DNA from: Cyclobacteriaceae bacterium
GTDB taxonomy: Bacteria > Bacteroidota > Bacteroidia > Cytophagales > Cyclobacteriaceae
Direction: 5' to 3'
DNA length: 64,000 bases
NCBI GenBank assembly: GCA_016787725.1
Contig: JAEUTZ010000026.1
Location: 1 to 64,000 of the forward strand
Shown here: piece after piece, positions 12,159 to 14,807 of the stretch
Layout of the letters: every line of letters starts with the position of its first letter
Numbering within the stretch: the stretch's first letter is position 1
Program-made: the position numbers and the translations under genes
The notes under the pieces: generated by a model
Told to the model about the DNA's origin: nothing
The model's input: only the letters and a program-made list of their open reading frames with translations
Database searches by the model: none

Positions 12159-13397
12159 TTACCGATCTACTTCGCCCAGCACAATGTCAATGGAGCCTAA
12201 GATGGCGATCAGATCGGCAATTAAAACTCCCCGGCTAAGTTCCGGCAATACCGATAGATTTACAAATGAGCAGGCGCGCGCTTTACAACGGAATGGAATA
12301 TCACTTTTGCCATCAGCAATAAAGTAAAATCCCAATTCACCTTTTGGGTTCTCCGCTCGCACATAAAGTTCCTGCGCCTTGGGTCGGATTTTTTTCGGTA
12401 CCACGGACTGTGGATCAAAGTCGCGGGTACGTTTGTGCTCCCCCTCCAGTTTATCCAGGCATTGCCGCATAATCCGCAACGATTCATAGATTTCACGCAC
12501 GCGCACCCAGGTTCGATCCCAACAATCGCCAACGGTACCCATTTTACCCTCTCCGATTGGAATTTCAAACTCCAACTCCGGATAAACCGAATATCCATCA
12601 ACCCTTCGTAAATCAAACCGCAAGCCCGAACCGCGTAACATGGGTCCGGTAATACCAGAATTAATGGCCAGATTCAAAGGCAGCACTCCTACGTTCGCAG
12701 TACGATCAATGAATATTTTATTGTTGACCAGCAACGTCTCCAATTCACCAACTTTCGGTGTAAAGTAGTTTATGAATTCCCGGCATCGCTGCTCAAAGCC
12801 CACCGGCAAATCATAGAATAAACCGCCAATCCAAATGTAGTTGTACAACATCCGGGCACCACTTACCCATTCCAGCAGGCGTAAGATATGCTCGCGGTCG
12901 CGCATGATCCAAAAGAAGGGGGTGAAGGCGCCCAGATCAAGTCCATAGGTTCCAACAGCGATCAAGTGTGAAGCAATCCGGTTCATTTCTGCTACCAACA
13001 CCCGGATGTATTCAACGCGTTTTGGAATCTGGTCGGTAATGCCCATCATCCGCTCAACGCCCATCGCATAGGCATGTTCCGAATTCATTGCCGCTACATA
13101 ATCCATGCGGTCTACAAAGGGAATAACCTGATTGTATGGCAATCGCTCGGCATGCTTTTCAAAGCACCGGTGCAGATAACCAATGTGCGGAACGACATCC
13201 TTGATGATCTCACCATCGGATAATACCTCCAGTCTGAGCACTCCGTGTGTGGAAGGATGCTGCGGACCTAAATTAATGATCATCTCTTCCGACTTCAGTT
13301 CATTATAGTTGAACTTGTTCGGTTCAGAGTCAGTGAGGTTGTCCTCTTTGTAGATATACTGCTGCTCCTTATTCAATTGAAAGTGGACAATGGACAA
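12159..13397 (-). CDS. nuoD: NADH-quinone oxidoreductase subunit D
   Basis: This is the 49-kDa complex I subunit lining the quinone cavity, with 412 residues when read from TTG 13397. The core is intact from [21 protein letters not shown] (the quinone-site His lies in GPQHPSTHG) to the C-terminal [27 protein letters not shown]. The N terminus is odd: no ATG occurs before residue 39, and the only start codons near the expected site are non-ATG. The TTG used here lies inside the terminal inverted repeat of the inserted element at 13382-13799. The original start may have been lost or replaced by that insertion. Confidence 0.93.
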
Positions 13398-13407
13398 TTA
13401 ATAATAA
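13382..13407 (+). repeat. Left terminal inverted repeat of the IVP element
   Basis: This arm begins AGTGGACAATGGACAAT and is the inverted partner of 13767-13799. On the minus strand it provides the TTG codon from which nuoD is read. Confidence 0.7.
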
Positions 13408-13461
13408 CAAAATTCCCTATTTAGATTTTGCAGTTTTGATGGAAAAAGTCTGAATCTTTAT

Positions 13462-13791
13462 TCACTCAACACAATCAGTTAACAATCCTTCATCGTTCTT
13501 TAACTCAATAATCTTGGAATCAATCAGTAGCCTAATCCAATATTTTGATTCGTTGGCTTCCTTATTCGCTATTGATAATTTATGAATGAAATCCGCTCTC
13601 GACTCAGCCTGATTTGCTTCTTCGATTAAAGCCCCAACTGAAGTGCCACTCCTCAAAAGTTGCCTGGATAAAATGTACTCATTCTCAGCTTGAAGTCTCT
13701 GGCATAATGAAATGATCTTTAACGCAAAGTGATAACTCTTATCCTTAAGAACATTTTCTCTTCCCTTTATTATCAATTGCTCATTGTCCAT
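13462..13791 (-). CDS. Four-helix bundle protein, 23S rRNA-IVP family
   Basis: This 109-residue, largely helical protein has typical family features: an N-terminal LKDKSYHFALKIISLC, the segment YILSRQLLRSGTSVGALIEEA and the segment ADFIHKLSIANKEANESKYW. Members were first seen inside intervening sequences of 23S rRNA genes and are also scattered between genes in Bacteroidota; they resemble the Avd accessory protein of diversity-generating retroelements. The function is unknown. Here it is the only gene of an element bounded by inverted repeats and inserted between nuoC and nuoD. No reverse transcriptase or variable repeat is near, so a retroelement role is not supported. Confidence 0.85.
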   Translation of the reverse strand: MDNEQLIIKGRENVLKDKSYHFALKIISLCQRLQAENEYILSRQLLRSGTSVGALIEEANQAESRADFIHKLSIANKEANESKYWIRLLIDSKIIELKNDEGLLTDCVE

Positions 13792-13799
13792 TTTCCACT
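13767..13799 (-). repeat. Right terminal inverted repeat of the IVP element
   Basis: Read inward on the minus strand this arm begins AGTGGAAAATGGACAAT and ends AATTGATAATAA. The ATG of the four-helix protein (13791) is part of it, so its first eight residues or so are encoded by the repeat. Confidence 0.7.
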
Positions 13800-13801
13800 A
13801 A

Positions 13802-14287
13802 TTAGTACTCAATTTTCACGCCCCTATAAGTTTCATCCTGTTGATAATCTTTAAGCAGGGGAAATCCATTCCAATCGGCTGGCATGAGAATTCTTCTCAA
13901 GTCAGGATGATTCTTAAATTGGATTCCAAACATATCATACACTTCCCGCTCCAACCAGTTGGCCGACTTCCACACCGGAACCAGGCTCTCAACCGCTGCT
14001 TGCTCGCGTGATAAAACAACTTTTATAGACAACGAGAAATGGAATGGAATGGAATATAAATGATAGACTACTTCAAGGGTTCCAGCTTCCGGCCCCCGGT
14101 CCACTCCGCTGATATTCGAAAGCATATCAAAATATGTATCCGGATGCGTGCGAAGTTCAGAGCAGACACGAAACAATGTTTCCTTCGGAACAACATAACC
14201 CGCGGGGGTTGAATTCGGGATTTCAGACACTGGTTCTCCAACAACCCGGCTAATCAATTCCTTAATACGTTCTTTATGATCCGACAT
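13802..14287 (-). CDS. nuoC: NADH-quinone oxidoreductase subunit C
   Basis: This 161-residue protein is the 30-kDa peripheral-arm subunit of complex I. The characteristic C-terminal signature is present: [29 protein letters not shown] (about 110-140), ending with a YRGVKIEY tail. It is not fused to nuoD, unlike in some proteobacteria. Its start overlaps the end of nuoB by 14 bases, and its stop lies three bases from the edge of the IVP element that now separates it from nuoD. Confidence 0.93.
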
Positions 14288-14807
14288 GGAGTTTTGTATT
14301 TAACAGTCGTTCAATGGCCACGGGTTTTACGCGACTTTCATTTCGGATTTTTTCATGCAATTTCAAGATTCCACCAATCAATGCTTCCGGCCGGGGCGGA
14401 CAACCCGGAACATAAACGTCAACAGGAATGATCCGATCCACTCCCTTTACCACATGATAGCCATGTTGCCAATAGGGACCACCGCAGTTGGCGCACGAGC
14501 CCATCGAAATCACGTACCGGGGCTCGGCCATTTGTTCATACAGCTGCTTGATGCGGTCGGCCATTTTAAATGTTACCGTACCGGATACAATCATCACATC
14601 GCTTTGACGCGGAGTTGCCCTTGGCACCATGCCGAACCGATCCATGTCGTAAACGGTACTTCCCGTGCTCATGAATTCAATGGCACAGCAAGCCAATCCA
14701 AAGGTCATTGGAAATAAGGAAGACAGCCGCGACCAATTTAATAAATCATCGATCTTGGTGATGATCACCCCGCCTTGTTCAAATTGTTGATCCAATAGCC
14801 CTTTCAT
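14274..14807 (-). CDS. nuoB: NADH-quinone oxidoreductase subunit B
   Basis: This 177-residue subunit carries iron-sulfur cluster N2, the last electron carrier before quinone. The four cluster ligands are visible: the adjacent pair in [11 protein letters not shown], the Cys in GSCANCGG, and the Cys in [11 protein letters not shown]. The length is normal. It overlaps both nuoA (four bases) and nuoC (14 bases), indicating coupled translation within a tight nuoABC block. Confidence 0.95.

Follow-up and report, generated by a model that had tools for sequence, protein, structure and literature searches.

Why does a small gene framed by inverted repeats separate nuoC from nuoD, two complex I genes that normally abut, in a member of the Cyclobacteriaceae? 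The locus lies within a 64,000-nucleotide window (the whole stretch of DNA that was analysed) from a bacterium whose nearest named relatives by NuoD comparison are uncultured Cyclobacteriaceae (93%). The first-pass annotation had taken the insert for a mobile, non-transposase element that landed in an essential operon. Our best reading is that it is a minimal selfish element and kin of the 23S rRNA intervening sequences, with arms probably recognised by the protein it encodes, and that such elements decay to heptamer arrays.

Structure of the nuoC-nuoD insert

The three genes of the locus are encoded on the reverse strand. By comparison with relatives, nuoD (12159..13376) starts at a TTG codon (13376-13374), and nuoC (13802..14287) was assigned by profile matches. 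With this nuoD start, the insert, also on the reverse strand and delimited from the junctions of relatives, extends from the nuoC stop to the nuoD start (13377..13801) and measures 425 bp. It carries inverted arms, AGTGGACAATGGACAATTAATAATAA at 13382..13407 on the nuoD side and the inverted match at 13767..13799 on the nuoC side. The near-perfect 17-base terminal repeats initially described are real: the outermost 17 bases match with one mismatch, and the score of the inverted arms (19) was reached by none of 20,000 shuffles. The matching inner sequence, AATTRATAATAA, is shifted by 7 because the nuoC-side arm is longer by one 7-nt unit (GAGCAAT), and this offset identifies the arms as tandem heptamers, of the ATGGACA type. 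A scan of the 64-kb window for strict tandem arrays with lags of 5-12 found none, since the arms are degenerate.

The enclosed gene was also recognized correctly at the outset. The sole open reading frame of at least 60 aa wholly within the insert (13462..13791, reverse strand, 109 aa) encodes a 23S rRNA-intervening sequence protein/four helix bundle protein (hereinafter IVP), matched in profile searches by PF05635 (82.5 bits, cut-off 33.8) and TIGR02436 (88.6 bits, cut-off 24); there is no transposase gene inside. The ATG of the gene (13791-13789) falls in the nuoC-side arm, and the arm itself encodes the start codon and first residues (MDN-QL-I), as it does in two relatives, G027 and G034. 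An in-frame TGA truncates the window protein 16 residues short of its 125-aa kin in these two genomes, and the window copy may be decaying. The IVP protein is under purifying selection, with dN/dS below 1 in 17 of 17 usable pairs and below 0.5 in 16 of them, these pairs being partly non-independent (L065, L090, L092); between G027 and G034, the value is 0.04. The profile matches two solved structures, 2rld and 2gsc, with five chains each, and published work describes 2gsc as five four-helix bundles in one assembly.

The insert is located between nuoC and nuoD, and thus outside 23S rRNA, and Rfam produced no match in 12900-14300. No clear target-site duplication was found: ATTGA is present at both ends of the G034 element, but the heptamer itself contains TTGA. 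The 17-mer, with at most 2 mismatches, was detected at 14 places in the genome, compared to 0 for the reversed control; of the contexts inspected, several are short arrays at gene ends, and others are inside genes, so that the expectation of many copies of one repeat was not borne out. At a separate locus of the same genome (L017, contig C18), two heptamer words, TTGACAA and then TTGATAC, stand in succession directly ahead of an ATG. A second NuoD-like match (G000:C5:220453-221616; 596-aa frame, 45% identity) is present on contig C5; the genome may hence hold two complex-I-like operons, and the operon in the window need not be essential.

Inverted heptamer arms around other IVP genes

Multiple copies of the unit, which had been suggested as a sign of mobility, were found for the gene but not for its DNA. 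IVP matches occur at four other loci of the genome besides nuoC-nuoD, namely, murD-ftsW, sufB-sufC, argC-argD and proline racemase-DAO, whereas the exact DNA of the window element is single-copy, and the repeat AGTGGAMAATGGACAAT is absent from the other IVP copies, the arms of which use other 7-nt words. All five loci are framed by inverted 7-nt arms, of five different words. Four are significant at p = 0.005; the sufB-sufC arms are weaker (p = 0.14) yet scored above all 100 shuffles in a wider test.

Within the genus, 57 of 59 genomes contain IVP matches, 282 in total. We took 133 of the 282, selected among the best-scoring, and dropped L083 and L122, which are located at contig ends, leaving 131 loci with both flanks. 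Inverted arms were detected at p<=0.005 in 71 and at p<=0.05 in 99 of these, compared to 0 and 3, respectively, among 44 other genes of the window. The arms match themselves at lag 7 (0.376) and at lags 14 and 21 (0.33), against 0.25 for coding DNA. Arms were also common in a wider Bacteroidota sample (p<=0.05 in 17 and p<=0.005 in 12 of the 28 testable loci out of 29; L373, at a contig end, was dropped) and on plasmids. In a sample of 16 out of 24 IVP-bearing plasmid records (five phyla; 12 cyanobacteria), 15 had arms at p<=0.05 and 11 at p<=0.005, built of many words, some of them recurring. The plasmid locus L187 had no inverted arms (p = 0.56), and at L180 direct repeats were stronger than inverted ones. 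Arms at p<=0.05 were absent from 32/131 genus loci and 11/28 Bacteroidota loci. Inverted arms are therefore usual, but not universal, around IVP genes.

The arms are tandem 7-nt words that are alike inside one element and different among lineages, and these words track the IVP protein. To compare different sites, we merged them conservatively into 24 (the unmerged count, 38, is inflated by missed flanks). Arm similarity increased with IVP similarity, different merged sites included (r = 0.20, 0 of 1000 permutations). Among different-site pairs, the signal is patchy: it is clear at IVP similarity above 0.7 (mean arm score 11.1, 16 pairs), at background level at 0.6-0.7 (7.5, 55 pairs) and present at 0.5-0.6 (8.8, 170 pairs). 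The IVP of L138 is 0.73-0.77 similar to IVPs of two other sites, with no arms in common. The junction between thiolase and acyl-CoA dehydrogenase genes is occupied by three IVP clades, each with an arm word of its own, and a CGGTAAT-like word is common to related IVPs at two unrelated sites, one between a release-factor gene and an MFS gene and the other upstream of a glutamate synthase gene, where the left neighbour gave only a sub-threshold ThuA match. A derivation of the heptamers from the target site was rejected, given that the words track IVP lineage. A 75% match of L154 to a nuoC-nuoD IVP was also discarded as a short-overlap artefact. Finally, mismatches within arms (112 of 147 elements) comprised 114 G:U-compatible and 131 A:C transitions (p = 0.31). 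Without a G:U excess, there is no sign that the likeness of the arms is maintained by pairing in the sense RNA.

The elements occupy stop-to-start operon junctions and, in the genus, mostly face in the sense direction. Both neighbours were co-directional with IVP at 119 of 123 resolved loci (133 loci minus 10 with an unresolved neighbour) and at 18 of the 22 merged sites, out of 24, that could be resolved, against a background of 20 co-directional triples among 43 in the window. On plasmids, IVP was co-directional with both neighbours in 10/16 cases and antisense to both annotated neighbours in 4/16, two of which lie between cas2 and cas1 (L185 and L186, on plasmids of the cyanobacteria Nostoc and Anabaena). 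Given these antisense copies, we would sooner attribute the sense bias to selection, or to a need for host transcription, than regard it as proof that insertion took an RNA route. Some IVP genes with inverted arms (L193, L194, L192 and L189) are located in likely defence operons; the contexts include a position that follows drmD and precedes an MmeI-type gene, one between hsdS and hsdR, and proximity to methylase or helicase genes.

Filled, decayed and empty junctions among relatives

The annotation of nuoC and nuoD as flanking genes that normally abut holds, and empty sites, which it had suggested looking for in relatives, are common. The nuoC-nuoD gap could be measured in 55 of 80 named genomes, the other 25 nuoD loci being left out for want of a measurable nuoC; it is at most 20 bp in 38 of the 55 and contains IVP in 7. 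Including the window, IVP is present at 8 of 56 junctions and missing from 48, so that the unit is not common to all relatives at this place. (We use this count because at least 8 genomes are duplicated in a larger set of 70 nuoC-nuoD junctions.) Together with the 425-bp window insert, gaps of 418 bp in G027 and 406 bp in G034 contain the element. In the close relative G020, the junction is closed, the nuoC TAA touching the nuoD TTG, and in G009, G008 and G032, the nuoC stop touches or nearly touches the nuoD start. Further states were observed as well: G030 has 22 bp of heptamer array at this junction, and G051, which belongs to another family, has an 89-bp hairpin of inverted heptamers from which the gene is absent.

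The nuoC-nuoD IVPs form one clade, and their hosts fall into three distinct regions of the host tree. On the NuoD tree, presence and absence at this junction require no fewer than 5 changes, of which starred branches force 4, and on the FtsW tree, IVP presence needs 6; these changes may be losses. Host and element trees at nuoC-nuoD did not conflict significantly (AU p = 0.13). In the IVP comparison, most of the proteins cluster according to site, and no transposition event was seen in the junctions compared. Thus, of the proposal that a mobile non-transposase element has landed here, one part stands, namely, a non-transposase insert at a usually closed junction with empty sites in close relatives and IVP copies elsewhere in the genome. 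As for a recent landing, the unit is better described as part of a site-linked lineage that was repeatedly gained and/or lost.

Other junctions behave similarly. At murD-ftsW, IVP is present in 6/22 genus genomes and in 0/7 measured genomes of other families, and the two genes overlap in G020. In hand-picked sets, IVP was found in 9/20 genomes at sufB-sufC and in 5/19 at prdA-DAO; L307, L319 and L331 were counted as IVP-bearing despite gaps of 149, 280 and 233 bp, below the length of a whole element. Pooled, the four junctions range from full elements through hairpins without a gene and short arrays to empty sites. Among IVP-less gaps of 18-300 bp, lag-7 arrays were detected at p<=0.01 in 13/41 (~12/37 without exact duplicates), whereas lags 5, 6, 8, 9 and 10 gave 0, 1, 2, 1 and 0 at the same threshold. 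Gene-less inverted-heptamer hairpins in the L044 nuoC-nuoD gap, the L332 prdA-DAO gap and L019 were equalled by 0, 1 and 0 of 5000 shuffles, respectively, and resemble gene-less derivatives of the elements.

Two further observations concern gaps in which no IVP was detected. The murD-ftsW gap of L209 (G012) is 541 bp long and may reflect a wrongly placed gene end or a different insert. The proline racemase-DAO junction has gaps of ~200 and 520-570 bp in L327, L336, L337, L338 and L341, and seems prone to insertion.

Origin of the insert and comparison with known systems

Our preferred explanation, to which we assign a probability of about 0.55, is that the insert is a minimal selfish element of ~0.4 kb, consisting of a heptamer arm, an IVP gene and an inverted heptamer arm, and nothing more, with the IVP protein putatively recognising its own arms. 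The main rival is old inheritance with many losses, whereby IVP would be an ancient operon gene, immobile now and passed on vertically, its arms arising by slippage and template switching between inverted repeats. The strong purifying selection on IVP and the occurrence of the nuoC-nuoD IVPs as one clade across host groups are in line with this account. The clustering of IVPs by site and the AU test, which did not reject a host-like grouping, also favour it and weigh against a selfish element, because old inheritance plus loss fits them too. The loci at which arms are absent, the patchy arm signal between sites and the lack of a clear target-site duplication also count against the selfish element. 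Conversely, the junctions are closed or overlap in insert-less relatives, as they do in several genomes of other families; one junction type hosts three IVP clades that differ in their arm words; and related IVPs sit at two unrelated sites. Overall, we find this rival unlikely, if still worth serious attention.

The remaining alternatives invoke RNA or enzymes acting in trans. The arms could pair in the polycistronic mRNA and be cleaved by RNase III in the manner of the 23S rRNA intervening sequences, thereby setting downstream expression; the sense bias at genus loci agrees with such a device, as does the Coxiella intervening sequence (IVS), which carries a terminal stem of 28 bp and is itself excised by RNase III (PMC4990558). 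However, selection for RNA pairing is not evident from the arm mismatches, no Rfam family matched the region, and the antisense plasmid copies, including those between cas2 and cas1, speak against it, making this account distinctly improbable. Movement in trans of a non-autonomous element by an ordinary arm-recognising transposase would explain the resemblance of the terminal inverted repeats and gene-less hairpins to MITEs, but five elements of one genome carry five arm words, and these words track the IVP protein, a correspondence not required by a transposase acting in trans; we hold such movement to be very improbable. The least probable possibility is a retroelement in which IVP acts like Avd, the accessory protein of diversity-generating retroelements, with a reverse transcriptase in trans. 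PF05635 resembles Avd (PMC10053308) and the sense bias would be compatible, but the plasmids carry antisense copies, and the reverse transcriptase that marks such a retroelement was not found: the RVT_1 profile had 0 matches in this 99.99% complete genome, the control search being positive in 3/14 known genomes.

Under the selfish-element explanation, the IVP protein would read the 7-nt repeats in the arms of its own element, with DNA a likelier substrate than a paired RNA stem, and such recognition, which we regard as probable, would require arms and protein to match. IVP is not known to be a nuclease; cutting and joining would be performed by host replication or recombination enzymes. Stop/start junctions would be favoured because inserts there disrupt no gene. 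Once the gene is lost, hairpins or arrays of heptamers would remain beside start codons, and the elements would then be one potential origin of the 7-nt repeats known from cyanobacteria, Bacteroidetes, Xanthomonas and Beggiatoaceae. More tentatively, IVP elements may form a separate, widespread class of minimal mobile elements lacking nuclease, transposase and reverse transcriptase, in which the protein reads co-evolving tandem 7-nt words; they would generate the heptanucleotide arrays of many bacterial genomes, and the 23S rRNA intervening sequences would be a special case that landed in rRNA. This proposal connects two puzzles, the IVP ('four helix bundle') proteins of unknown function and the heptanucleotide arrays, and offers a testable source for the latter. 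It also presents a candidate element for which no mobility enzyme is known, and it would explain the occurrence of a stray small gene in core operons, among them nuo, suf, mur/fts and arg, of some relatives but not others.

REPIN/RAYT and MITE elements have paired inverted repeats, are in some cases gene-less and are tied to one protein family; by contrast, the repeat word differs between elements of the window genome. Heptanucleotide arrays, including TAACTGA, have been described in Beggiatoaceae, cyanobacteria and Bacteroidetes, the TAACTGA ones of one genome standing mostly directly before start codons, and for the spread of such arrays 'no mechanism is evident' (PMC4679880). GGGAATC arrays are found in Xanthomonas and Nostoc; two genomes of Xanthomonas contain 70 and 75 inverted pairs, respectively (PMC4692102). 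Such arrays are tandem 7-nt repeats like the arms; in the available parts of these two reports, an IVP gene is not mentioned, whereas here the arrays frame one. Similarly, 18 IVP genes of the same family were noted inside operons, in cas loci, with arms unmentioned in the available part of that account (PMC3936711). Across the mainly open-access literature searched, we found no link between IVP genes and heptamer arms except for the Coxiella rRNA case. The nearest known system is the 23S rRNA IVS. That of Coxiella is 428 nt long and, in some strains, has three tandem heptamers ahead of an ORF of the S23p/IVP type (PMC4990558). Like it, the window element is ~0.4 kb long and has a single IVP-family ORF between terminal inverted repeats, with tandem heptamers beside the ORF start; it differs in residing in a protein operon, with arms that vary by lineage and in which selection for RNA pairing is not evident.
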